The position numbers were made by a program, and so were the translations under genes. A model generated the notes under the pieces. The model ran no database searches, was not told the origin of the DNA, and was given only the letters and a program-made list of their open reading frames with translations. 64,000 bases of DNA from Tetmemena sp. SeJ-2015 (taxonomy: Eukaryota; Ciliophora; Spirotrichea; Sporadotrichida; Oxytrichidae), in contig JAJKFJ010022590.1 in NCBI GenBank assembly GCA_027382625.1, positions 62,001 through 126,000 of the forward strand. The letters run 5' to 3'. Positions within the stretch are counted from its first letter, which is position 1. Each line of letters begins with the position of its first letter. This document shows, piece after piece, positions 1-21,962 of the stretch.

Positions 1-45
1 GAAGGATTTACCAATTTTTATCAATTATTATTTCATGATTTCTAG

Positions 46-5934: not shown

Positions 5935-8930
5935 ATGAACATAATAAAACTAGCTACCTTTTACTTTGCTCTGTAAATAATTGAGTCCTCTACAACAGTA
6001 GAGAGTAAGCCTGTCAAGAATGACCAATGGAAGCCTTTTGACCCAGAGGAAGACTATTTCCAAGGGAAGATGGCCTTTGTGTTTCAACTAAATGAAAATG
6101 GGTCTCTGACACAGCCAAATATGTGGGAAAAGTTCTTCAATAGAGCAAAAAAGAACGACAATATGCTCAAGCAAAAGATGGAATAGCAACTTAAATAAGA
6201 TGAACCAGAAAAGTATATATCAATAAAATAATTGATAGAGCATTATTTGTTATGAAGTATAGAGAATACATATCGAGTGACAGTTACTATTTCAACCTTT
6301 GGTAGAGGTACCAAGTCTATTTCCATATTAAGGGAGCGGTTGAAGAGTCAAGCCTCTCCTTCTTTTCGGAATCAGAGGTAAAGCCTTTCAAAGAATAACT
6401 AAAAGTCACCAACCCGAAGCAGATCTTTTCTCACCAAAAATGGGAGGAAGATGAACTCGCGCCTGTTAAGAATTAACTGGACATTCTCAAGAATTTGCTG
6501 GCTTCTAACAGTAAAGTTCAAAAGATTATGTTCTTAAGTGGAGATTCGATCCCTGCTTATGGTTTCTTGGAGCTCTATTCCATTTTAATTTAAGTTAGGT
6601 TTTTATTATCACAGGATCATGAGTCACGATTACACCATGCTAAATATCTTTGATGTGCCACACACTATTGAAGAATCGACTATGCTACTCAGCTCAGATC
6701 AGTTTGTCATCACTAGAAATCATGCAGAGCATATCATCTTAAAATGAAACATAAGACTGCATATTTTTTTAAAAGTAGATAATCTCAAATGAGTATCAGT
6801 TACTGGAGAATTTAAAGGCTAATCATGCAGGAAAGAGCTTAAACTTCTTGTAGCACAAGTTCATAGTAAACAGCTTGAAGTGGTTAGAAAAACTAGATCA
6901 AATCTTCTCCGAGGGTGAGTTCTTAGACAAAGTGTGGAACACCATAGTTTCACACGAGATTATCAAGAATTCCTAAGTATTTGAGTACAACACAATTTCA
7001 CACAGTGATATCTAAGGTGCCAGAGCAGTGGGCGCACTAATTTATGTTTAACTTTGAGGAAAGTAGCTGAGAGTTGTTAAATAGAAACACAACTAATAGA
7101 TGACACACTTTCGATTTCTTCCTCAAGAAGGGGTTTATTGAACCTCACAGAATTATAGTACAGCCTCGACCTATGACACTTCTTCTCCTCTATCTTTAAA
7201 AGAAGCCAAGGGTGAGCTAAGTCTTTTAAATATTTGTTTAGAGCAAGAGTTGTAAGAATTCAAGGGAAGATTGGGAATTTTCTTGATGGTTGGAGAGCAT
7301 GACTTGCACACTCTCTGGCAGCAATTCTTTCAAAATGTAAACCTACACATTAATCTCTTCTAGATTAGGTTAGTTTAAATATTGAATTTACCAAGCAAAT
7401 TGTACAAGGTATTCTTGTACTCTAAGTTCCCAGTGCCTGAATAAGAGATAGATCACCTTAAAAAGAGCATAAACTTGGAATTAGTAGATTTAAATTTATT
7501 TATAAGACAATGACAGATTGGCCAATAATGGATTCTCGATCCTTGAGGATAAAGCAGAGATGATGAACCGATAACTCAATCTCTTAAAATACGGACTGGA
7601 TGATTACCACAACTACTGCCAGAAGTTTTTGTTCTTAGATTCATAAGTACTGCCTGTATTTGATTTTCTCACCATTTATTCTAAGGTACACTTTTATTTA
7701 CAACACACTCATGTCCAACTCTAGAAGCTACATAGATCTCTCTTACATAAATTAAGAGATACTTGGAGTCAAACCAGAGACTTAAATCACGCAATTCGTA
7801 GATGTTTTTACCCCAGAATAACTCCTCAAATACTAGTCTCTTTTTTTTATAGATCTTTTTATATAATTATAGACTTAATTTTGACTGCTAAGAATTATAA
7901 GAATTAAAACTAATTTTATCAAATTAGACTTTATCTATTGCATCATAATAATTTTTAATGTAGCCTATTTATATTATTATTTCTTTAAAATTGAAATTCT
8001 TTTCGTGGTGAACAGATTCCACAGCTCTGCCTTGGTGAAGCTGAAGTCTCATATGGAGAAATTTTGGAACTACTTCCCTTAGGTAATGCATCCTGAGAAC
8101 TTAATTATCTGGACTACTCTCAATCAGATAGGAGAGAATGAGGAAGTGGAGAACCTATGCCTTGTCTATCACAGCGATGTGCTCTAATCCCTTCGAAAAA
8201 GAGAAGTAGGTGAGTACAAACCAAATCTTTCAAAAGACGATGTGGAGGCAGTCAGACAGAGGAAGTGTCTCTTCATTGGAGGGGTCTCTCACATGACTTT
8301 AGTCCACAAAGGAACCCAGCAAATAATTTGCTTTATTATTTTCGAGAATGCGATGGAAAGGAATGTCGTGAATCCTCGCCCAATCTGTGAAAGTGATTGT
8401 GAAAACACTCTAGTAAATGAAGAAGCAGTCATTCAGAATTACGAAAATGAAACTAAATCTGAGCTATGAAGATAATTAGATTAAAGTTTATTTTAATGTT
8501 CTCTTTAGTGTATAAATGCCAATTTAATTAGCATTTAATTCAAAGCCTAACTTCAAGACTCTTTCTGCTTAGATACAGTTAATGGAGCATGCTCTCAAAG
8601 AAGATTAGAACAAAGAGATATCCAAGTTTGTTTTATTGTCAGATGGTGCATCCCAGTCTATGACTCATTACAAATTCATACATTCGAGGTATTTCTAAAT
8701 GTTTATTATAGATTTTTGAGATGGATTATGATATTCCAGTGTAAGCTATTCACATGAACAACAACTTACCCTTCAACATACACACTAAGCCTAACTTAAA
8801 AAAAACAATATCAAATTCTAGTTAATCTTCTAATCCTATTTCTTTCTTGATGTCACACTCGTAAATGAGAGAGCCTCAAAATATAAATTTCAGATTCGCA
8901 TTTAAAGATACTTCTTATGTAATTACATGA
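5935..8930 (+). CDS. GT14 (core-2/I-branching) glycosyltransferase-like gene 1
   Basis: Opens MNIIKLATFYFALQIIESST, a signal peptide. The GT14 entry motif follows (KMAFVFQLNE...MWEKFF). Later blocks are KIMFLSGDSIPAYGF and the MSHDYTML...ITRNHAEH region. A second, more diverged domain starts GRLGIFLMVGEHDLHTLWQQFF. The TGA at 8467-8469 is not the true end: the TGAG pointer at 8460-8463 recurs at 8717-8720 and leads into the 3' module, whose pieces are permuted (8717-8797, then 8543-8696, then from ~8840). The end near 8930 is a guess. The family transfers GlcNAc from UDP-GlcNAc in the secretory pathway. Activity here is doubtful because the canonical S-C-I-P-L-Y is altered. Confidence 0.7.
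8543..8845. other. Permuted 3' module of GT14 gene 1
   Basis: Protein order is piece k (8717-8797, ends THTKPNF-like), k+1 (8543-8696, KTLSAQIQLMEHAL) and k+2 (from 8841, FLDVTLVNERA). Physical order is k+1, k, k+2. Pointers: TGAG into k, AAGCCTAACTT (8787-8797 = 8543-8553) from k to k+1, and TTTCT (8692-8696 = 8841-8845) from k+1 to k+2. One single-base frame break lies just before CIPVYD at ~8645. Confidence 0.8.
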
Positions 8931-8972
8931 AAACTTTATAAAATATTTAATATACCCTTCTGTTGTTAACAA

Positions 8973-11509
8973 ATGATGAAGCTATTAGGTTTGATACTTG
9001 CTATAACAACACTATATAAGATAAATAATTTTGTCACTATTATTGGTGAGTGTAAATGGTGAGGAAGTATAACTTACGCAGCATAGAGGGAAGCTGGCCT
9101 TTTTGTTCATGATCTATGAGCGCCATCTTAACCCAGAAATATGGAGGGAGTTTTTCAAAGATGCCCCCAAGGATAAGTTCAATTTTATGCACACTTCTGA
9201 TTTTTTATTAAAGTATGTGATCTATTATCATGTGAAGTTTCAAGAGATCGATGAGTTCCCTGAGTAAATATTTTTAATCGGTTTAAATGCGTGGGTTACC
9301 AATCAGAAAGGTCAGCTAAGTAGAGACCGCCCATGGATCTATAGGACTCGTAAGGACAGAAATACAGCTTATGAGAGAAGCAATAGTAGACGAGGATGTG
9401 CAAAAGTTTTTCTTCCTAGAGCTAGAGTTGCATTCCAGTCTATGATTTCAACACTATCTCCATTAATTTACTAATTATTATTCTATGTACGAGAAAGTGA
9501 TGAGTCATCCTCACTCATACGTTGAGATAATTTTCAGAATGCAGATGAGTGGAGGTCGTTTCCCAAGATACGATTACCTACTCAAGACTATGCCAAGAGA
9601 CAACATCTTAAAGCACTCTGCATGGGTGTTGCTTAATAGAAAGCACGGAAAACATTTTGTAGATAACGAGGAGTAGATCATTGAAGCATTCTATAATGCT
9701 CTATAATAAGTTAATTACTTTGTTTCACGAAGGATGCACCTGATAACGTTTACTTCCCTGATGAGGGCATTTTCTCAACCACTATCGCTTAGTAGGGATG
9801 GCTAGATGAGATGGTGAATGCTTGCATCATCCACACCAACTGGTACCACTCTGGCGGTATTTTCCACTACCCTAACCTCACTGCTTTCGACATTCACCAG
9901 TTCAGACTTAAGGGCACCGTTGCGGCAAGGAAGATGTTCCGTGATGTATAAATGGATCAAGATACATAGCTTGCAATTCTTAATAAGATCCCCATGGAAG
10001 AAGTATTATCCTCTAAGTACTACATAAAGCAATCTAAGTATGCCTAGAGAGTTGAGACATATGCTCAATAGTTCACACCTAAGAAAATTCCTCTCATTAA
10101 AGTAGAAGTTCCTGCTAAACTTTAGGGACATTTAAAGAGCTTGAGATCGCTAGCGAGTTAGTTTGAGATTCCCAAGCCACAGCTAAACTTTATATTTTTG
10201 CTTTAAGGGAAAGTTAGCATTCCTCTTCATAGTTAACGAAAAGCAATTTAAAATAGCATAATGGAGCAGAGGCATGGAGCAAGTTCTTCAAAGATATTCC
10301 TTCCGAGTACTTTGAAATATTCGTGATTGTCACTGGACATCAGCCAAATTTTGCCCAGATTTTTAAGATAAAATTTTAATAAATAACTTTAAGAATCTAA
10401 CTTAATAACTATGCTTTGATAATCTATATAAGTTCATGTCTATGACTTCCCTAAGATCTATGATATCATAATGGAGGAGAACTAAAGCTTCCTTGATCTA
10501 TAAATAATTTGGAAATGAGAGAGCTTGGGGAAAATATCAAAAGTACGCTTAACTTTTGGAACTCTTCGACGTTAATCATTTAATCGCACACGAGTCATAA
10601 TTCGTATTGACTAGAGAACACGCGCAGTAATTTGTGCTCCTTAAAGACCATATGTGCAAAATATGGGGATCCTACAAAGATGTCAAGCAGCCTGAGACCG
10701 TCGCAATAGGCACTACACTTGCAAATAGTTAAAAGTATTGTAAATTTTATGATTGCAGCTCTAGATTAGATTAAGAACGTAGAAAACTTGTGCATATCTT
10801 TCCATGATATGTCGCGCCATGAAGACTATAGACAGATCGAGCTAGTAACTAGAGACTATATACCTTAGGCTAAAAAGGATTTTACTAAATTTACTGAGTT
10901 TAAATTTATCATAGACGCAAGAAGAGAGTGTTTATTCCTTTCAGACCTAGGAGTGAATGCAAAGATAGATTCAGAGTCCATGGATTTGATTTTTGGAGTA
11001 TATACCTCAGAGCCTTAAGCCCCAGAATAGAGCCAATAATTGTGAAAAACATTTATTTCCTAATACTTTCAATTTCTTCAACAAATTTGAGATTGAGCAA
11101 CCCTCTCAGCTTAATTGCAGCTTTTGTAAGCGGCTCTAAGTGAAGATCCTCTAGGAGAAATTTAAAAGTTCATTCTCATTAGTGAAAAATGCATTCCTGT
11201 ATTCGACTTTGCAACAATCAAAATAATCTTATTTAAATGGTTTATTTTATATTTTTATTTTATGGAGATTTCGATTAGACATTAAACATAGTAGATTTTG
11301 ACTAAACTTATCCCTTCGATATGAAAGAAAACCCTAATTTCAGAACCCTCTCATCTAAAGAACCCATATTTATTTACATCAAAATTTATTACTTGGATGC
11401 GACTCATCTCAACGAAGAATCATAAAAAAAGAAAAACATCTTTAATTAGTCTTTATTAAAATAAATTGTCTAAAAATAGAGGCACTTTAAATTATAGTTG
11501 GTAAAATGA
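8973..11509 (+). CDS. GT14 (core-2/I-branching) glycosyltransferase-like gene 2
   Basis: Signal-type start MMKLLGLILAITTLYK; then GKLAFLFMIYERHLNPEIW and a SCIPVYDF block. MSHPHSYVEI...SGGRFPRYDYL, ILKHSAWVLLNRKH and the long uninterrupted piece 9750-10240 (FPDEGIFSTTIAQQGWLDEM, IIHTNWYHSGG, RLKGTVAARKMF) follow. A second domain begins GKLAFLFIVNE after a 13-nt IES. The P-D-E and N-W-H/Y positions match family acceptor/catalytic blocks; the first domain is the better conserved. The 3' module is permuted. One frame break sits next to SCIPVYDF. The TGA at 11507-11509 overlaps the next ATG, so the exact end is uncertain. Confidence 0.75.
10193..10205. other. Ultra-short IES, 13 nt, pointer CTTTA
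   Basis: CTTTA at 10188-10192 and 10201-10205. Removal turns PQLNF...out-of-frame into PQLNFKGKLAFLFIVNE, restoring the second domain's entry motif. Confidence 0.8.
10260..10275. other. IES, 16 nt, pointer GCAT
   Basis: GCAT at 10256-10259 and 10272-10275. Removal yields KIAWSKFFKDIPSEYFEIF, matching the W-x-x-F-F block of the paralogs. Confidence 0.8.
11099..11385. other. Permuted 3' module of GT14 gene 2
   Basis: Piece k (~11270-11353, IVDFDQTYPFDM...NFRTLS) lies downstream of k+1 (11099-11224, SAQLQLLQAAL...SEKCIPVFDFATIK). They are linked by the 10-base pointer AACCCTCTCA (11344-11353 = 11099-11108). k+1 joins k+2 (YYLDATHLNEES) through ATCAAAAT (11217-11224 = 11378-11385). All three joins are in frame. 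Confidence 0.85.
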
Positions 11510-14500
11510 TAAATTCAAAGTGTCTTCTGCTTTATCTGATTCTGTTAATTTCACTTAGTCTTATCCATAAATCTCATCAAAAGAGTACCGCGGATCCATT
11601 ATAAGTTAGACATATTAAAAATGACAACTCAGCCGACCCATAAAAGAGTAAAGCAAATGTGAGGTTAAAACCAGAAAAAAGAAAACTGGCATTCCTATTT
11701 ATGCTTTACGACAAGCATCTGAATCCGCAAATGTGGACATCCTTTTTTGAAGAAGCTCCTTTTTATTTCTTTGTTTCCTCAAAACTAATACACTATACTT
11801 TATCATTCAAAGATAGAAGGCGATGAACAACTATTCCCTCTGCAAATAGAATTTATTTTTAAATGGAAGGATTAACAGTGTAGAAGATACCCTACACCGA
11901 AAGCAACTGGGGAGACATGGGAATAGTAAACTATAGGTAGTTAAAATTAGATAATTATTAATTAAAATTCTTGCTTTTACGGATCTACATAAAGCTGATG
12001 AAATTTGCCTTAATGGACTCTGAATTTAAATATGTTTTGAAGTGGAGAAGGTGATTTTCGTGAGCCAGAGTTGCATCCCTCTTTATGATTTCAACAGCCT
12101 GTAAAATAAATATCAATTTATAAATGTATGAAAGGGTATCTACTAATTAAAATTAACTTTCTCTCACTCTATAAATTAAATAGAAAACTTTAATAAATAT
12201 GAGGCTGTTAAACTCTGAATATATATTCGCTATCTTAACAATGCTAGATAAATTAGTTTCAAAATTAAAAGAGAAAACTTTACAATAAATTATTCTACTT
12301 CTTATAGTTCTTTTTTTTTTAAAAAATAATTCCCTTCTCAATCAAAAAATATTTACACTTAAAAAGGGATAATTAAACTTTTTAAGTAAACAAAATTTGA
12401 AACGATTTATAATTCATACATTTCCAGTACATAATGAGTAATGAGTTTTCGATGATGGAAATAGTTCCCTCAGAATAAAGAGTTGAAGGCAGATTCCCAA
12501 GATACAATTTCCTTTTGCAGAAGTTTGAGAGGGAAGAGATTGTGAAGCACTCAAACTGGATGGTGCTAATTAGAAAGTATTGTATTTAAGCATGCCAAGT
12601 ACTTGGTGGAAAATGAATAGCAGATTATACAAACTTATGAAGACTTATTTTAGTAAACACATTTAAATAAAAGACTTGGCAAGAGAAACATAACTAGCTT
12701 ATATTCCAGATGAAACCTTAATTGGAGTCTCTCTTGCGAAGCAGGGCTATCTATTCTGCAAATCATACAAAACAATAAAGATAATTAATAACAATAATTT
12801 CCCAATTTAATGATATTTTAATTAAAAAATAAGGATATTTAAATAGATTATCAAGATTAATTTTTTCACTTTAATTTTAAACTTAACTTTAAATTTGTTT
12901 CGAGAATAAACGAAATCTCTAATACTTTAGTTACTTACTTTAATTCAAATAAATTTAGGAATTTATATCTTAATTTTGAAGAAATAAAATTTATCCTTAT
13001 TTTTAATTTATGAAACTTACACAAATTGGCATAGCGGGAAGATTTATCACTTTAGCAAGTTCTCCATTTTCGATTTAGTTTTATTTATAACAAGCACGAT
13101 TAGGAGGGGCAGTGATTGCTCGTAAGATGATGGAAGATGTTATAATTATTAATTCAAGTATTTAAACCTTATTAATTATAGCATAGATTATATGGTGTAC
13201 CATGTAATTTTCGGAGGAATTCAATTAAACACTTATATTTAATTGCTAATTCCTCTTAAACTGTTTAAGTTTTTATTTTTATAAAATGCATTTTTTCTTT
13301 AAACATAGTTTAGCTTTGCACTAGGCACAAGCTTCTACATAAAGCCTTCATTCTAATCTTTTGAAATAAAGAGTTATCAAAGCACCTACTCACCTCTATT
13401 AAGAGTGAACGCACAGAAGGTGCAAACTATCCTCCAATATATTTATTTAAATACAGAGGCAAAATTGCTTTTCTATTATCAGTCAATGAGTATTCCTCAA
13501 ATTTTACTCATTAAATGTAAATTTATTGTAAATATCTATTTCTAAAGTTTGGTTTAGTGTTTTAATATTATGATACCATCATGATGAAACTGTCTGGCCA
13601 AAGTTTCTTGAGAAAGCGCCCAGAGAGTTCTTCGAGATCTATATAATTAAAAGCCAAAAGACCATTTTTGGAGATGAGTTCAACTTTTATGGAGATTAAG
13701 AAAAATGGTCTTATTAATAAAGAGTGCTGTAATATATTATGCCATTAAAATAAACAATTTTAGTTTAACTTTGCAACAATTTATGAGTCAGTAATGATCT
13801 CAAACAGCAGTTACTTGGATGCTATATTTTAAACGATGAAGCATGTAGTAAAGCTTAAAGGTTAAACTCTCTGCTGGATGTGTTCGCAATTGAAGAACTC
13901 ATATCCCACCATTCTTAGTTAGTTCTTAATAGACAGCATGCACTTATCTATTTTAATCAATAGACTAATTAAGCATAATTTAATAGATATTATTTTATAT
14001 AATAAGCATACAAATTTTCCTATTATTAAACAAATTGATTAGTTAACTTGCTTTGGTGAGTAATGTGAAGATGATTAGCTTGATATGGGATAGATTTTCT
14101 TCTCTGGCTAAACCTGAAACTGTTGTGATTGGCACTACTTTATCAAAGTTGGGGCTTTTGCAAGAGGTAGAGAATATGTGCATATCCTTCCACTATAAAT
14201 ATTTATACTAAATTTCACGACTAACTTGACAAGGATCACTGGAATCAAACCCATACATTTTTTTAGAATAAAAATTTAAATGTCTTTGCTCTCAAATAAA
14301 TGCCTAAGAACATTAAAAATATCCAAATTCTTTTATTGTATTGTCAATCACACAGAAAGAATCTTTAAAAATTAAATGTAATTGTAGATTGAATGACCAA
14401 AGTCAAATAAACAAGGACCTTATAATTGATGCAAAGTAGAGATGCCTATTTCTCTCTGACATTGGATACCAAGCACCCATATCTCAAGAAGCAATAAGAA

Positions 14501-15277
14501 TGATATTCGATGTTCCTAAATTCACCCTACCCTTTCACAATATTAATTTAATACTCAGATAGAAGAGGCAATCAACAATTATGAAAAACCTGCTGCACTT
14601 ATTTGAATACTTCTATTTAATTTACAGTCATTACTCCATGACAAGCTTGCAGCAACAAAGCTAAACATTAATATTTAATCTCTAGCCAGAAAATTAATTC
14701 AAAATTGCATTTATAAAAGCCTAAGTTTATTAATTGTGAAAAGAAATAAATTTAGAACTCTTGTTTCTGCTACCATGCTTAGCTCGTATATAGTTTTTAT
14801 ATGCTATAGATTAAACTAAGATTAGAGTCTTAAATAAAAGGTATTTAATATGGTTATTAACTATGATAAATTAGTTATTAAATTGGCTCTCAGCTTAGCT
14901 GTAATTGCTAGAGGCGGCTCTTTTCGACGACAAAGACGAGTAGATCAAGAAATTCATTATTCTCTCTCAAAAGTGTGTCCCCGTCTTCGACTTCAAACCT
15001 TATCCTATTCAAAATAAAGTAAAAGATATAAAGGAAGATAAAATTAATAAGTTAAATTTGATGGAGACTTTGATCTCACTTTGAAAATAGTTGATTTTGA
15101 CAAGACTTATCCATTTGACTTGAGAGCTAAGCCAAATTTCAAAACACTCTCAGCTTCATTCAATTAAAAATTCTTTAACCACTATTCTATTTGGATGCAA
15201 CATATCTAAACGATGAATAGAAAATATCTTGCCAATTTAATTATTCAAAAGAGGTAAAGAATAAATAAAGAGAATGA
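11506..15277 (+). CDS. GT14 (core-2/I-branching) glycosyltransferase-like gene 3
   Basis: Begins MINSKCLLLYLILLISLSLI (clear signal peptide) and continues RKLAFLFMLYDKHLNPQMW, VIFVSQSCIPLYDF and MSNEFSMMEIV...GRFPRYNFLLQKF, followed by the diverged second domain (KIAFLLSVNEY; VENMCISFH; DAKQRCLFLSD). TGA at 15275-15277. Many long AT-rich inserts occur (for example 12105-12420, 12770-13020). I count these as IESs, though not every pointer could be resolved. The 3' module is permuted as in genes 1, 2 and 4. The SCIPLYDF block is the family's most conserved one, so the first domain may be active in the Golgi/ER lumen. Confidence 0.72.
14887..15180. other. Permuted 3' module of GT14 gene 3
   Basis: Piece k (~15055-15155, IVDFDKTYPFDLRAKPNFKT) is downstream of k+1 (14887-14999, LSAQLQLLEAALFDDKDEQ ... 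CVPVFDFK). The 9-base pointer CTCTCAGCT occurs at the end of k (15147-15155) and the start of k+1 (14887-14895). AACC (14996-14999 = 15177-15180) joins k+1 to k+2, giving FKPLFYLDATYLNDEQ. Confidence 0.88.
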
Positions 15278-15476
15278 ATTTAATACTTCTACGATTTAAA
15301 TGAGAATGTTATTTAAGGATTATATATCAAACAAATGATAAATTTATATCTTTAATTCTTAGATATGCTTGAACATTTCCTTTTAGATAAAGATTGACTA
15401 AGATATTACAAATTAAAGCTTAAAAGAGATAAATAAGCACATACTTTAAATAATAGTATTGTTAATAGGCTGTAAA

Positions 15477-18400
15477 ATGTACTACAAAACCATTTTATCA
15501 ATAGCAATTCTTCTACAGATCTCTAATTTTTAAATCGCTTTTACTGCTACTAAGAATTACGACTTCCAGCGTAAGGTAAAAGTAATAAAGAGCTAAAAGA
15601 ATGAAGAGCTAGCTGGCTAAGAAACTCCTCATGAGACTAAACCCCCTGCTAATTTGGAAACTAAAAACTAGAAGCTAGCATTCTTGTTTATGGTCTATGA
15701 TAAACACCTCAATCCTCAAATGTGGATGACCTTCTTCGAAAATGCTCCCTAGCATAAATACTCTATCATATACCATGCCAGAGAAGATGAGAACGATTAG
15801 TTCCAAGACCAAATATATTTATTTATTATCCACTTTAAATGAGAGGTTTGAATGTCCGAAAAGTGCCTAATGTTCCAAGCAACTGGGGAGATATGGGCTA
15901 AGTAAACTTTCCTAATGAACTCTGCTGGTATTGCAATCTTTTGTAGTTTAAGAGTGTAGATTTAGCTAATGAGGTACGCAGTGGCTGACACAGAAGTATT
16001 TTATTTTTGTGAGATGTTAGAAAGATGATATATGTGAGCTAGAGCTGCATTCCATTATACGACTTTGACTCTCTGTATCAATTTTATAGGGGAATTTTAA
16101 ATTAGGTAGCTTTTATAATATTATTTGCATAGTCATTTTATTCTTAGCTATTAATCTTAATTCCACTTTGAGAATAAATTATTTCGCTATTGAATTCAAG
16201 GGCTTAAATTTAATAAAGAAAAGTTTTTTATCACTAATAAACAAATTTCTTTTAAAATACCTACCAATACGCTTAACCGCTTTGCAATAACTCTAGAATA
16301 TAATATATTATTAAGAGAATTCAAATTAAGAAAAATTATTTAGTAAGAAGCCTTTCTAATCTTAGCGATTATGTTTCATATTTAATCTTTTTCACTATGA
16401 TGCGAGCAAACAGTAAAAATATTGAAATAATTTATAGCAAATTTTAAGTGCGAAAGAATTTGGTGTATGGTTATACGATTATCCATTTATAGTGAAAGCT
16501 CTCCCTAAATTTTAAATTTAATTAGTACGAAAGGATTATGAGTAACGATTTGTCAATGATGGAGATCACACCCAGAGAACAAAGGAGCGGAGGCAGGTTC
16601 CCAAGATACGAATTTCTCCTAGAGAAATTCCACAGAGATGAGATTATGAAGCATGCTAATTGGATGGTACTCATCAGAAAACATCCATTTAAATTTTACA
16701 ATATTTTAATCATTTAAAACTCAATAAATTGATTTATTATGATAACTTCAATTGAAATAAATACATTATTAAATAGGGTGATAATTCAGATTATTTTCAG
16801 AAAAAAGAGAGAGAGAGATGATATTACTTTACTTGCTATATTTTTGTTGTTTAAAGTAAAAATAACTATATGGGGTATGTTATTATAATACATAATTACT
16901 AAAAAATATATCTGATAGAAAAAGAGTATTTATATGTCTAGTGCTTCAAATATTCTCTAGAAGGGATATTGATAATCGTATTTTAGTATTCTAAAGTACA
17001 ATTATTTAAATTATAATTTTTGTAAACATGCGCAGTATTTAGTTGAGAACGAGCCTGACGTGATACAGACTTTTGAAGAACTATTTTTCTATTTTACAGA
17101 ACTTGCTTAATCAAATGTATATAGCCCTGATGAGAGCGTTATTGGCACTTCACTCGCTAGAAAGGGATGGCTATTTTAATAATTTATTATTAAACATACT
17201 AAAATAAAGGCTTAATTTTATCAATAAATGAACTCACTAATTCAATCGTCATTCATTTAATCCTTTTAAATAATAATGCTTATTTAAATAAATTTGAAAT
17301 TTAAAATAAAAATTATATAATTGATTCATGCCAACTGGCATCATGGGTTGCGGCACTTTGATAGATTCACGATATTTGACGTGCAGTCAGCAAGACTCAG
17401 GGGTGCAGTCATTGCTAGGAAGATGTATGAGAATGTCAAGATTCTTTAATAAAATATAATGAAACTATATTTGATTGACAAACTTACTCAGTAGGTTATT
17501 TTTGGATAGTTACCTCTTAAACTTAAATGAGAATGTTGTTTCAAATCATTTTATATTAATTTGATTAATCTAGTTATGGGATCTAATTACTATATCAAGC
17601 CTTCTTATTAGTCCATAGAATTTAATTTTATAATAAAGGTAATTAAGCAAAATAATTTATAAAAAGGAGCAAATATTTTCTCAATTTATTTTTCTATTGC
17701 TTGACCCTTCTATTTAGCCTGTCATTTCACCTTCCACTTCATATAAACTCATTCCTGCCAATTTTCTTTTCCTTTTTTTAAATAAGAAAATACTGAAACT
17801 ATAAGCTTTTAAGTATCACAAAAAAGCAATTACAATATGATTCAGCCAAAATTTAAAGGCAAGCACTCTAGCTATCAGTAGGTAATATATAAAGACCTAT
17901 TTTATTATCCATGGAAATTAAAAGTTATCAGAGCACATTAGAACCAAACACTAACCATAAATAAATTCAAACACAGCAAACACTTTAGCAGTTTTTAAAT
18001 TAGTATAGAGGAAAGATTGCATTCCTACTAGTAGTTAATGAGTATCTAAGTATTTTATTTTAATATCACCATGATGATAAGGTATGGGTTGAGTTTCTCA
18101 AAAGAGCACCACCTGAATTTTATGAGATCTATATCACCAAGACACTTATTTAACATGAGGGTAGCGAATTTAACTTTGATGGAGATGATATTAATTCCTC
18201 TCATATGTAAATTTATTCCGTCTTCGACTTTTCTACAATCTATGAATCAGTAATGATCTCAAACAGTAGCTATTTGGATGCTTAATAGTGGAAATTTAGA
18301 TGAATACTGCAGCAAAGCGGAGAGATTCGCTCCCCTAATGGAGGTCTTTCCCCTCGAAGAAATAATCTCTCACCAAGCTTAGATTGTACTAAACCGATAC

Positions 18401-19350
18401 CACGCTCTTGCTTTAGTCAATTATATGGACGAGATCAGTCGCATTTGGGGCAACTTTTGTGATTTGGCAAAACCTGAAACTGCTGTTATAGGCACCACAC
18501 TCTCAAAGAATTTTTATCTTTAAGCTAGGACTACTTTCAGGGGTTGAGAATATGTGCATTTCTTATCATTAAAGTTTTAATATATTTATCACGACCCATA
18601 GAGCAGTGATACTCATCCTGAGCTAGGAACTCATCACACCAGATTAATTTCTAAGATTTAAAATATCATAGATCACATTATCGATGCGAAACAGAGGTGT
18701 CTTTTCCTGTCAGATGTAGCTTACACATCTTCATTCATGAGCAGAAGCCTTCAACATCATTTTTGAGAATTAGAAGGCAGTTCTTCCCTTCCACAATATC
18801 TGTTTATTTTATAGCTCAGATAGAGGAGTCACTCAACTATAATTGACTGACATTACATAACCAGATTTTTTGATAGTTAGATTCTATAAATAGCTCTTTA
18901 AAAAGTTCACAGATCACAATTTAATTTATCTAAGAAATCATCATTTTCATCTATTCTGATCTTTGCATTAAATAGGAGATGACTTTACTTATTCATTATA
19001 GATAGTCGAACTAAGATTCATTATAGATATACCTCTGCCCAGTTTTAGATTCTAAGGGCTGCTCTTGAAAACGATTTGGAGAATCAAATAACTAAGTTTG
19101 TTATTCTCTCGGAGAAATCCATTCCTGTCTATGATTTTGGACATTGGTATAATAGAATAGTTTTTTAATTGAACTAATTTCAATTTCGACGCAAATTACT
19201 CACTTGACGTGAATATAGTGGACTTTAGCAAAAAAGATCCTATAGATAGTCAAACCATGAAAATAGCTTCTTGGACACTACAACACTAAATGAGAGAGCT
19301 ATCTACTATCAGCATTCATTTCATTATATGTCTAAGAAGAATTAAAAATA
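15477..19350 (+). CDS. GT14 (core-2/I-branching) glycosyltransferase-like gene 4
   Basis: The best-resolved member. Signal peptide MYYKTILSIAILLQI; then KLAFLFMVYDKHLNPQMW, MIYVSQSCIPLYDF, YERIMSNDLSMMEITPREQR, GGRFPRYEFLLEKF, MKHANWMVLIRKHAQYLVEN, SPDESVIGTSLARKGWL, IVIHANWHHGLRHF and RLRGAVIARKMYENV. The second domain is GKIAFLLVVNEY ... VFDFSTIYESVM ... KPETAVIGTTLSK ... VENMCISYH. C-terminal third module SAQFQILRAALE ... FVILSEKSIPVYDF ... FLDTTTLNERA. At least five IESs with clean pointers join these in frame. The third module's MDS order is permuted. The true stop is uncertain because the frame stays open into gene 5's 5' region. Confidence 0.78.
16685..17029. other. IES, 345 nt, pointer AAACAT
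   Basis: AAACAT at 16679-16684 and 17024-17029. Removal restores MVLIRKH-AQYLVENE exactly as in the paralogs. Confidence 0.88.
17174..17226. other. IES, 53 nt, pointer TA
   Basis: TA at 17172-17173 and 17225-17226. The join gives KGWLNELTNSIV, matching GWLDEMVNAC and GWLDAVVNRM in genes 2 and 5. The small MDS that follows is only about 30 nt. Confidence 0.65.
17257..17329. other. IES, 73 nt, pointer ATTCAT
   Basis: ATTCAT at 17251-17256 and 17324-17329. Removal yields NSIVIHANWHHG in frame. Confidence 0.85.
18917..19266. other. Permuted 3' module of GT14 gene 4
   Basis: Pointer chain: CAATTT (18917-18922 = 19181-19186) joins the upstream piece to k (19181-19251). TATAGATAGTC (19241-19251 = 18997-19007) joins k to k+1 (18997-19155). 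AATAG (19151-19155 = 19262-19266) joins k+1 to k+2. The spliced frame reads TDHNFDANYSLDVN ... DPIDSRTKIHYRYTSAQFQ ... HWYNSFLDTTTLNERA without a break. Confidence 0.9.
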
Positions 19351-19379: not shown

Positions 19380-21962
19380 ATGAACATTTTTTCTTTCTAT
19401 ATCTTAGCCATAATGCTTGCTTCATCATATAATTTACATTTATGGATGCATTAATTTTTAGTAAATCATTCTGCATGGCTCAAGAGGAATCGTAAGAAAG
19501 TGGCAGCCCAACTTTCTTAAAAATATTAAATTTAATTTGCTATTAATTAAATACAGAACGAAGAGTCTCCTCCAATTATAGAGGACTAGAAAGGAGAAAG
19601 CCAATAAGGAAAGCTAGCTTTTCTTTTCATACTCCAAAAATAGGATGGATTGAGGCAGCCCAAGCTTTGGAGAAAACTCTTTGAGGGAGTGGATAATTAT
19701 ATTTTTAACGATCGATATTCTATACTCTACCACACAGAAGAAGAAGTGCAAGAGACTAGCTTTGACACCCAAATTAAATTCATTAGATGCATTCATTTCA
19801 ATTTAAATAATCACAATTTAAATGTCAGACCTAACAAGTCAGAGAGTGTTTGTTCATACTGAAGGAATAGAAGAAGACATTCAAAATTATTAAATTAAAC
19901 AAAAAAAGGCTTTACTTAAAATTGCTTTTAGCTTAATTAAATATTTCATCTTTTATGTGAGGGTTTAATTCATAATTACAGAATAATGCAAGGATTGATG
20001 AGCCAAGCTTTATTTGATAAGACTGTAAATTGATTTCAATTATAGTTTAATCATATCAGGTCAGGAAAGTGGTTTTTGTGAGCGATAGTTGCATTCCGCT
20101 TTATGGATTCTACCAATTAAGTAGGTAAAATTATTAGTAATTGTACGAGAAACTTATGAGCCATGAGTTCTCTATGATGGAGGTGATTCCAAGAGAACAG
20201 GCAAGTGGAGGCCGCTATCCCAGATATGAAGGACTTACTAAAGCTATAAACCGTGAACATATTTTAAAGCATAGCAACTGGATGCTACTTAATTGGTTTA
20301 TTCATTATTTATTATTAATAGGGGACATGCACAATACTTTGTCGACAATGAGAAATAGTTACTAGATGAACAAAATTATTTATCTGTTAATGAATACAAG
20401 GAAATAGTGGATGGAGAGGCATTGATACCTGAAGAAGTCATTTTTGGAACTGAAATATCTAGATTGGGGTGGTTATAATCTATATGTATAATAAAGTATT
20501 TAGAAATAATTTTAGATGCAGTTGTAAATAGAATGGTGACCTATAACAATTGGTACACAGGTGGACTTACTATGTACGGATTGATCACCATCGATGATTA
20601 GAAATTTATAAGTTCAAAATTATCTAACCATTTAAAATTATTTGTAAATTCTTATTTAAAGGGGAAAGATCAGAGAAAAGAATTTTAAGAAAATGTATGC
20701 ATAGTTTTGAGAACTCATTTAATTGCATGAAGCAAAGAGAGGCTAGAGACGATATTATCTGTATTGCTTAAAAATCATTTGCTTACATATTCTCAGGTTA
20801 AATTATTTACTTGTCATGAGTGGCATATTAATTACTCTATGTATTAAACAATAAAGTTATTTAAATGATTTACAGGCCATCAGACTGAAAGGAGCCTCCT
20901 TCTTGCGAATGGTTTCTGAAGATGCTAAGATAGACCACCTGGTTTACGATGTGATTTTTAATGGTTTAGATCTTTCTGTTGCATTAATTTAATTCATTAG
21001 GATGGAAAAGATACATCCAGCCATCCGAAATGTCTACTCTAATAAAAACTTACAAAAGCACCTTCGCTAAAAATAGTGAAGACTTTGATCCCACCTAAAT
21101 CCCTTATTTATATTTACAAGGGCAAGATCGCATTTCTGTTTGTGGTCAATGAATACCATCATAATGGATAGGTGTGGGTTTAATTTTTCAAGGATATCCC
21201 AAAGACTCACTTCCAAATTTACGTTATAAAAACCAGGATCACTCATGGGTAATTTATCTTCAATTTCGAACAAAATAAACGATTGATTAAGATCAGTCAA
21301 GTAAATTTTGTTCTTAGCTATGATTTTGGAGATATATACACCAAACTCACTTACTCTCAAGCTAGCTTCTTGTCCTTATTGCAATTTTTCTATATATATT
21401 TAAATAGAGAGAGCGACAAATAAAGCGCATAGGATAGAATAACTGCTAGAAGCATTCAAGGAAGAGGAAGTAATTCAGCACGAGACTGAGATTGTCCTTT
21501 AAATAGACAACACGTTGTTGCATTATTGCAAAATGAGAGGGAGATTGTTTCTATTTGGGAAAACTTTTGCCACCTTCAAAGGCCCGAAACAGTGCTGATA
21601 GGTACAACCCTCAGCCAACTATATACTAAAAATAAAATTAAACTAGGTTTAATGGAAGGAGTTGAAAATTAGTGTGTTGCTTTAAACAATTTATCTATCT
21701 TCGTTAAAAGTTTAATGCCTTTCATGATGAATCTAACCAAGTAAAATACAGGAACATTTGGCATGTGAGCTAGGATCACGTCATCGATGCTAAACAGAAC
21801 TGCCTATTTCTCTCTGATCTCCCATACCTAGGTGAAGTCAGTGGAGAAGCCACGGATCTCATATTTTAGAATAAAAGGCCAGATATCATCACTCCTCTTT
21901 AGGAAGAACAATTTCAACCAATTATTCCTATAGAGGTATGCTCAGAAGATATATGCCAATGA
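19380..21962 (+). CDS. GT14 (core-2/I-branching) glycosyltransferase-like gene 5, lacking the 3' module
   Basis: MNIFSFYILAIMLASSYN signal peptide, then GKLAFLFILQKQDGLRQPKLW, KVVFVSDSCIPLYGFYQLY, MSHEFSMMEVIPREQASGGR, ILKHSNWMLLNRGHAQYFVD, VIFGTEISRLGWLDAVV, TYNNWYTGG and AIRLKGASFLRMVSE. The second domain follows (GKIAFLFVVNEYHHNGQVW ... RPETVLIGTTLSQ ... GLMEGVENQC ... DAKQNCLFLSDL). TGA at 21960-21962 follows SEDICQ. No copy of the permuted third module is seen, so this member is shorter than genes 1-4. Three short IESs have clear pointers. Confidence 0.77.
20119..20142. other. IES, 24 nt, pointer AATT
   Basis: AATT at 20115-20118 and 20139-20142. The join gives LYGFYQLYEKLMSHEF, equivalent to LYQFYERIMS of gene 4 at the same place. 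Confidence 0.85.
20294..20319. other. IES, 26 nt, pointer TTAAT
   Basis: TTAAT at 20289-20293 and 20315-20319. The join gives NWMLLNRGHAQYF. Gene 4 has its 345-nt IES two codons further on. Confidence 0.85.
20476..20514. other. IES, 39 nt, pointer TTA
   Basis: TTA at 20473-20475 and 20512-20514. The join gives SRLGWLDAVVNRMVTYNNW. Confidence 0.78.

Follow-up and report, generated by a model that had tools for sequence, protein, structure and literature searches.

Which gene owns a group of coding pieces that lies between two genes of a tandem array, and when did the pieces come to lie there? The question is raised by an array of glycosyltransferase-like genes at approximately 5.9-22.0 kb of a 64,000-nucleotide stretch of Tetmemena sp. 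SeJ-2015 (assembly GCA_027382625.1, contig JAJKFJ010022590.1, positions 62,001 to 126,000 of the forward strand), referred to here as the window. The window comes from the germline genome of a hypotrich-type ciliate: when TAA and TAG are read as glutamine (genetic code table 6), coding blocks open up that are broken by short AT-rich stretches, that is, macronuclear-destined segments (MDSs) separated by internal eliminated sequences (IESs). The array consists of five head-to-tail genes, A to E, each encoding two GT14-like domains, and an ATG start and a TGA end were checked in all five. Genes B-E are scrambled germline genes for predicted two-domain GT14 (Core-2/I-branching-like) proteins, putative glycosyltransferases. 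The full account proposed here, to which a probability of roughly 0.88 is given, is that B-E are scrambled, that each displaced cluster of MDSs is owned by the gene that follows it, and that one scrambling event was succeeded by tandem duplication.

Four clusters of three pieces each are found at positions 8543-8874, 11099-11415, 14887-15219 and 18997-19299, beginning 53-280 bases past the TGA of the upstream gene, and in each the physical order is c, b, d2. The displaced pieces fill a gap between MDS a, which in gene D ends in ...FNFDGD, and the later body pieces. The inferred somatic order is a-b-c-d-d2-e, and the germline order is c, b, d2, then MDS1 and so on to a, d and e. An earlier sequence-only reading of this DNA had recognised one permuted order in four tandem clusters, and the swap of c and b is indeed present in four of four. 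The same reading had described the clusters as the last three pieces, consecutive in the order k+1, k, k+2, of four paralogs that it identified with the upstream genes. In these respects it had to be revised: the pieces lie within the second GT14 domain and not at the end of the gene, body MDS d falls between c and d2 in the somatic order, the paralogs number five, with the first (A) unscrambled at this place, and the pointers, the short repeats at the MDS ends, pair the clusters with the following gene.

All pieces and bodies lie on the plus strand. The body of gene B extends from its first ATG at 8973 to the TGA at 11045 (MDS a ends at 10364, d spans 10438-10497, e starts at 10513), and its displaced pieces are c (8543-8665, pointers AAGCCTAACTT and GTCTATGACT; conserved in a second contig, C1036, which has one extra base inside), b (8710-8797, AGATTTTT and AAGCCTAACTT) and d2 (8846-8874, CTTGAT and AAATGAGAGAGC). 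To the body of gene C (11506-14606; a ends at 13697, d 13768-13822, e from 13832) belong c (11099-11218, AACCCTCTCA and ACTTTGCAACAAT), b (11258-11353, TTTTATGGAGATT and AACCCTCTCA) and d2 (11389-11415, TTACTTGGATGC and AACGA). Gene D (15477-18846; a ends at 18185, d 18218-18281, e from 18299) is completed by c (14887-14993, CTCTCAGCTT and CCGTCTTCGACTT), b (15057-15156, TTTGATGGAGA and CTCTCAGCTT) and d2 (15187-15219, CTATTTGGATGC and GATGAATA), and gene E (19380-21962; a ends at 21269, d 21318-21372, e from 21407) by c (18997-19141, TATAGATAGTC and CTATGATTTTGGA), b (19179-19251, TTCAATTTCGA and TATAGATAGTC) and d2 (19264-19299, TAGCTTCTTG and GAGAGAGC). Gene A (5935-8469), a two-domain GT14-like paralog delimited by three-frame reading, protein alignment and its ATG and TGA ends, has the regions homologous to b, c and d standing in order at approximately 7500-7870 according to the three-frame reading, and is the unscrambled reference state within the same array.

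Pointers pair at every MDS end, with repeats of 5-13 bases at 20 of 20 junctions; three of the four d2-e repeats are short and not gene-specific. Joined at these pointers, genes C, D and E yield a single open frame through the displaced region in the window, and B, C and D are all open when joined in C1036. Gene B of the window carries a one-base slip inside MDS c (8646-8647), where C1036 has the extra base and reads open. The joined domain 2 matches the Pfam family PF02485 (Branch) with E-values of 5.3e-14 (B), 8.7e-11 (C), 1e-9 (D) and 1.6e-12 (E), that is, 52.8, 42.3, 38.7 and 48.0 bits at a Pfam cut-off of 23.4; the gene D protein, joined by hand, reaches 7.5e-28 and 98.2 bits in two stretches. 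Of the first domains, the scan covered those of B (65.6 bits) and E (43.9 bits). The order of the pieces was examined in genes C, D and E, but not B, with a profile built solely from domains that need no displaced piece, namely domain 2 of A and domain 1 of B-E. The inferred somatic order scored 108.5-119.6 bits, as compared to 90.1-95.4 with b and c swapped, 78.3-79.9 with the pieces in physical order or the cluster placed last, and 57.0-66.3 with the displaced pieces left out.

Ownership of the clusters could be read from the pointers: all clusters were searched against the domain 2 regions of all genes for exact matches of at least 9 bases. Eleven of the 16 cluster-to-body pointers measure 10-13 bases, and every one connects a cluster with its downstream gene (12 and 10 bases in B; 13, 13 and 12 in C; 13, 12 and 11 in D; 13, 11 and 10 in E). 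The remaining matches of at least 10 bases comprise two that occur in the same pairs but away from the junctions, and eight that link other pairs; of these eight, two fall at the homologous d2-e site (cluster E with gene B, 13 bases; cluster D with gene C, 11 bases). When the matched junction sites are tabulated in 41-base windows, where the 8-base entry for d2-e of gene C catches a neighbouring pointer, the downstream gene is the sole best partner at 12 of 16 sites and tied at one (d-d2 of B, 6 bases), and the three unclear cases are all d2-e (genes C, D and E). With respect to the preceding gene, the sole longer match in that table, in which gene A is not included, is that of 11 bases between cluster D and gene C. 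The pointer matches thus assign each cluster to the gene that follows it. At d2-e of C, D and E, this assignment depends chiefly on the reading frame and on the attachment of d2 at its opposite end. The array also provides a warning that in tandem arrays a displaced cluster is easily assigned to the wrong gene.

A second view of the same region came from the organism's own genome assembly (146.2 Mb, 5213 contigs). Searches of this assembly score only the best candidates, and among these, matches were found on contigs C3226, C1036 and C3421 alone. Contig C1036 (12,222 bases), retrieved by protein search, aligns end to end with window positions 6445-18520 in two pieces at approximately 95% and is allele-like, either the other allele or a recent duplicate of the array. 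It has the same layout for B-D (and A), an argument against an assembly artefact, and ends inside domain 2 of gene D, short of E. Between the two contigs, the nine displaced MDSs of B-D show 7 differences in 723 positions and the six IESs between them 27 in 254 (Fisher 4.7e-11); the body MDSs a, d and e show 26 in 1039, and no difference is seen in the stretches that directly precede the clusters of B (0/74) and C (0/52). Within 210 displaced codons, four silent and two replacement changes are present. Since the displaced MDSs differ so little in comparison with the cluster IESs, they are, as a group, kept as coding sequence, and C1036 proves useful for distinguishing MDS from IES by divergence. 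A change in one copy leaves the c-d pointer of gene D (window 18218) with 10 bases in C1036 as compared to 13 in the window, which is pointer erosion between two close sequences.

The age of the scrambling can be approached through the positions of the five junctions. In the protein alignment of B-E, junction midpoints, entered by hand from the alignment table, spread over 3.5, 11.5, 3, 2 and 2.5 columns, and a clustering as tight was obtained in 0/100,000 rotations and 0/100,000 random placements. The five junctions thus sit at near-homologous codons, while the pointer sequences differ among all four paralogs. Identity in domain 2 among B-E is 39-66%. Domain 2 of gene A can be aligned throughout with that of B-E at 24.5-30.8% identity; searched alone against Pfam, it gave no match. 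Genes C and D are the closest pair in both parts (66% in the displaced part, 64% and 59% in two body parts), and the sole supported group in the paralog trees is C-D, with 95/93 in domain 1, the domain protein set omitting doubtful short stretches of that domain. As the trees support C-D only, a single origin rests on parsimony and on the homology of the junctions. A single scrambling event before the duplications of B-E is by far the best reading and the simplest account.

Several sequence-only claims about this history can be upheld. The scrambling was said to predate the duplications, which for B-E agrees with the five coincident junctions at 39-66% identity, the greater distance of A and the pairing of C with D in both parts; the paralog tree proposed as a check gave the C-D group, in domain 1, as the only supported one. 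The pointers had been described as having slid and diverged with the topology kept, lying at nearby yet shifted codons, and this is what the coincident positions and differing sequences display: the b-c site spreads over 11.5 alignment columns and the other four over 2-3.5. The four b-to-c pointers are as reported, AAGCCTAACTT with 11 bases, AACCCTCTCA with 10, CTCTCAGCTT with 10 (previously given as 9) and TATAGATAGTC with 11. Longer pointers at scrambled junctions are likewise borne out, with medians of 11 and 4 bases. In detail, the five pointers per gene measure 8, 11, 10, 6 and 12 bases in B, 13, 10, 13, 12 and 5 in C, 11, 10, 13, 12 and 8 in D, and 11, 11, 13, 10 and 8 in E. These 20 scrambled pointers range from 5 to 13 bases and 16 non-scrambled ones from 3 to 6 (Mann-Whitney 9.5e-7), the latter hand-picked from 31 junctions by the fit of the joined peptide to the paralogs. 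Across the 31 junctions, the longest frame-compatible repeat is at most 6 bases in 29, with exceptions of 7 and 9 in long AT-rich gaps. For two non-scrambled pointers of gene C, a 3-base repeat (AAG; and CAC, read by eye and outside the four listed) was preferred to a 5-base candidate, a choice that leaves the maximum of 6 unchanged.

Two side observations concern the d2-e site. In gene C (11411-11419 versus 13832-13840) the pointer AACGA has 5 bases, and the likeness runs on past one mismatch (AACGAAGAA versus AACGATGAA), as if the pointer had eroded from a longer one. The d2 piece of gene D still has 11 bases in common with MDS e of gene C at this site.

Several points weigh against the account as a whole. 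The joined macronuclear form of B-E is a prediction made from germline sequence. At d2-e, the own pointers of C, D and E are weak (5, 8 and 8 bases), and cluster D matches gene C (11 versus 8 bases) and cluster E matches gene B (13 versus 8 bases) over a longer stretch than their own genes. Frame slips also occur in gene E at approximately 21493-21497 and in gene D at approximately 18740, inside otherwise open MDSs; the slips in B, D and E could reflect wrong bases in the assembly or genuine lesions. The contrast between MDSs and IESs is uneven, single cluster IESs ranging from 0/48 to 9/41 differences relative to C1036, and the body IESs a|d and d|e, with 7/215, are barely above the body MDSs. 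The domain 2 tree is unresolved, and rooting on A is a matter of distance.

The alternatives differ in what they make of the clusters. Their position alone, 53-280 bases after the upstream TGA, would suggest that they form the 3' end, the last three pieces, of the upstream genes A, B, C and D, and two matches of at least 10 bases do point upstream: cluster D with gene C at d2-e (TAAACGATGAA, 11 bases) and cluster B with gene A (10 bases, at a non-homologous site). Against this, the upstream gene offers matches of 4-8 bases at the other matched sites, where the downstream gene mostly has 10-13; gene A already has the region in place; and with the downstream gene all junctions close in frame and the product fits the GT14 domain. 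Assignment to the preceding gene was consequently rejected by pointer pairing at every site but the exceptional d2-e of cluster D and gene C, and we regard it as scarcely credible. It could also be supposed that the clusters are unused relics of decayed neighbouring copies and that the bodies alone encode the proteins, given that bodies lacking b, c and d2 still reach 57-66 bits with the unscrambled profile and that duplicated MDS debris does occur in this genome, on contig C3421. Relics would hardly be expected to differ by 0.97% between the contigs, as the displaced pieces do as a group, when the body MDSs differ by 2.5% (Fisher p 0.02) and the cluster IESs by 10.6%, nor to retain intact frames in C1036; without them, moreover, part of the GT14 core including IPVFDF is absent, and d and e of gene C stand in different frames. 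The relic explanation is accordingly held to be highly improbable.

A further possibility concerns the common origin of the clusters: scrambling might have occurred independently and converged on one order, or the order might have spread by gene conversion. Mutual conversion is possible between tandem copies, each of the four genes has pointer sequences of its own, and the position of b-c shifts over 11.5 columns. The coincidence of the junctions is, however, far beyond chance, and the same order, the same side and the same three pieces recur in four of four genes. Recent conversion predicts displaced parts that are more alike than the bodies; the values found are 34-66% for displaced parts and 36-64% for bodies, with C-D the closest pair in both. 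Independent scrambling or conversion is therefore considered very unlikely, and one scrambling event followed by duplication remains the preferred account.

Beside the directly observed positions, pointers, open joined frames and selective conservation in the second contig, this account comprises steps that can be put forward only conditionally. The three inner domain 2 MDSs lie 80-257 bases 5' of the first ATG of their own gene, in the flank that this gene shares with the previous one. To reach this state, an unscrambled ancestor resembling gene A would have undergone one scrambling event. The scrambled unit, cluster plus body, would then have been duplicated in tandem at least three times, and the pointers would have eroded by substitution and slid by up to approximately 12 codons, with the order unchanged in B-E. 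During somatic development, b, c and d2 would have to be transferred to their proper sites (a-b-c-d-d2-e), with the pointers of 5-13 bases brought into register. Both this rearrangement and its guidance by RNA templates are inferred by analogy with Oxytricha.

How the first scramble arose is a separate matter. If b and c are treated as a single block, the pieces follow the common odd-even pattern (2 and 4 upstream; 1, 3 and 5 in the body) with a further split and swap of the block, b and c themselves being exchanged. The pointer word 2-3-1-2-4-5-1-3-4-5 reduces, by hand, by one repeat (45) and one return (31..13) pattern. A model of duplication and decay (Gao 2015, as described in excerpts of PMC9797194) would explain the body IESs a|d and d|e as decayed originals of b+c and d2, and the cluster as derived from partial duplicates; it concerns only the origin of the first scrambling and is compatible with the account given above. 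The odd-even-like layout fits this model, and the flanks beyond the pointers lend it weak support, resembling each other a little more than reshuffled partners do (p 0.010-0.020 for the 3' flank and 0.0025-0.13 for the 5' flank, each across five flank lengths). Direct comparison of the in-place IESs with the MDSs that belong there is less favourable: among eight comparisons, the best were reached by 18/300 (a|d of E) and 46/300 (a|d of D) shuffles, and the other six are at chance (123/300 to 300/300). An old event would have lost this trace, and excerpts of PMC9797194 describe its loss in older loci. The chances that duplication and decay was the origin appear to be about even.

Comparable phenomena have been described in related ciliates. 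According to excerpts of PMC9797194, scrambled pointers in Oxytricha and Tetmemena are longer and scrambled junctions more conserved than others, conserved pointer positions mostly have differing sequences, pointers slide, and scrambled genes belong to larger families, scrambling being proposed as a ratchet. The present genes share the conserved positions, longer pointers, sliding and family membership of those scrambled orthologs; those are orthologs across two species, whereas the present case concerns paralogs in one array. In Oxytricha trifallax, two tandem paralogous loci with the same chord diagram, 75% alike in nucleotides, stem from a 77-kb duplication (excerpts of PMC5940158; Contig20275.0.1 and Contig5288.0, the first two of its Table 3 by MDS number). 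There, as here, an already scrambled locus was tandemly duplicated and the copies keep the topology, but that pair has two copies, and here there are four, with 39-66% amino-acid identity (domain 2), differing pointers and an unscrambled member. Like the odd-even genes of Gao 2015, as presented in PMC9797194, the array, with b and c taken together, splits alternate pieces over two germline blocks and has longer pointers; unlike them, it also has b and c swapped, and decayed in-place copies are not convincingly detectable. Interleaved germline loci described in the passages of PMC5940158 likewise have MDSs that adjoin those of another gene, apart from their own neighbours; in the present array, by contrast, the cluster is placed between two genes and not within an IES that belongs to the neighbour, and the arrangement is found four times. 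For non-scrambled genes, retention of MDS junctions after local duplication appears in an excerpt of PMC4684698, and many IESs at homologous sites in paralogs in one of PMC10901763.

A literature search covering titles and the beginnings of abstracts, with most subscription journals outside its range, returned nothing on a four-copy scrambled array. With shared tandem scrambling, longer pointers and sliding already in print, the type of phenomenon is known; what is new here is the copy number, the divergence of the copies and the presence of an unscrambled member in the same array. Material that is usually spread over several species is brought together in a single array: one paralog without scrambling and four with it, whose five shared junctions have reached different stages of pointer decay. 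The allele-like contig adds a second copy of three of the genes, and pointer sliding and erosion become measurable against the age of the duplications. The common order in four copies suggests that the pieces were shuffled before the gene was copied and that their arrangement has proved more durable than the sequences where the cuts fall. This fits the proposed ratchet, in which fixed scrambling is not undone: the order has been kept, with domain 2 down to 39% identity and the pointer sequences changed.

The duplicated debris on C3421 concerns gene E. At C3421:191983-192176 (L023:3984-4177, minus strand) lies a 196-base germline-form copy, 95.4% identical, of window 21363-21558, the d|e region of gene E. 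Nine of the 196 aligned columns differ. The copy begins precisely at the d-d2 pointer of gene E and is in frame at one place where the window copy is two bases out of frame. This copy may be debris or the first step of a new scramble. That scrambling is spreading again in gene E across contigs, with C3421 now supplying MDS e, seems to us improbable; a base error in the window is likelier, because two other genes carry single frame slips. If C3421 did supply e, the array would hold an old, frozen scramble together with a new inter-chromosomal one arising by duplication and damage of the original.

A PF02485 profile search of the organism's own genome returned no matches, of which the shortness of the pieces is, at a guess, the probable cause. 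The array seems to be flanked by two further interrupted genes, recognised by eye, which we take to be a topoisomerase III-like gene at approximately 4.5-5.5 kb and a serine carboxypeptidase-like gene at 22.3-24.2 kb.

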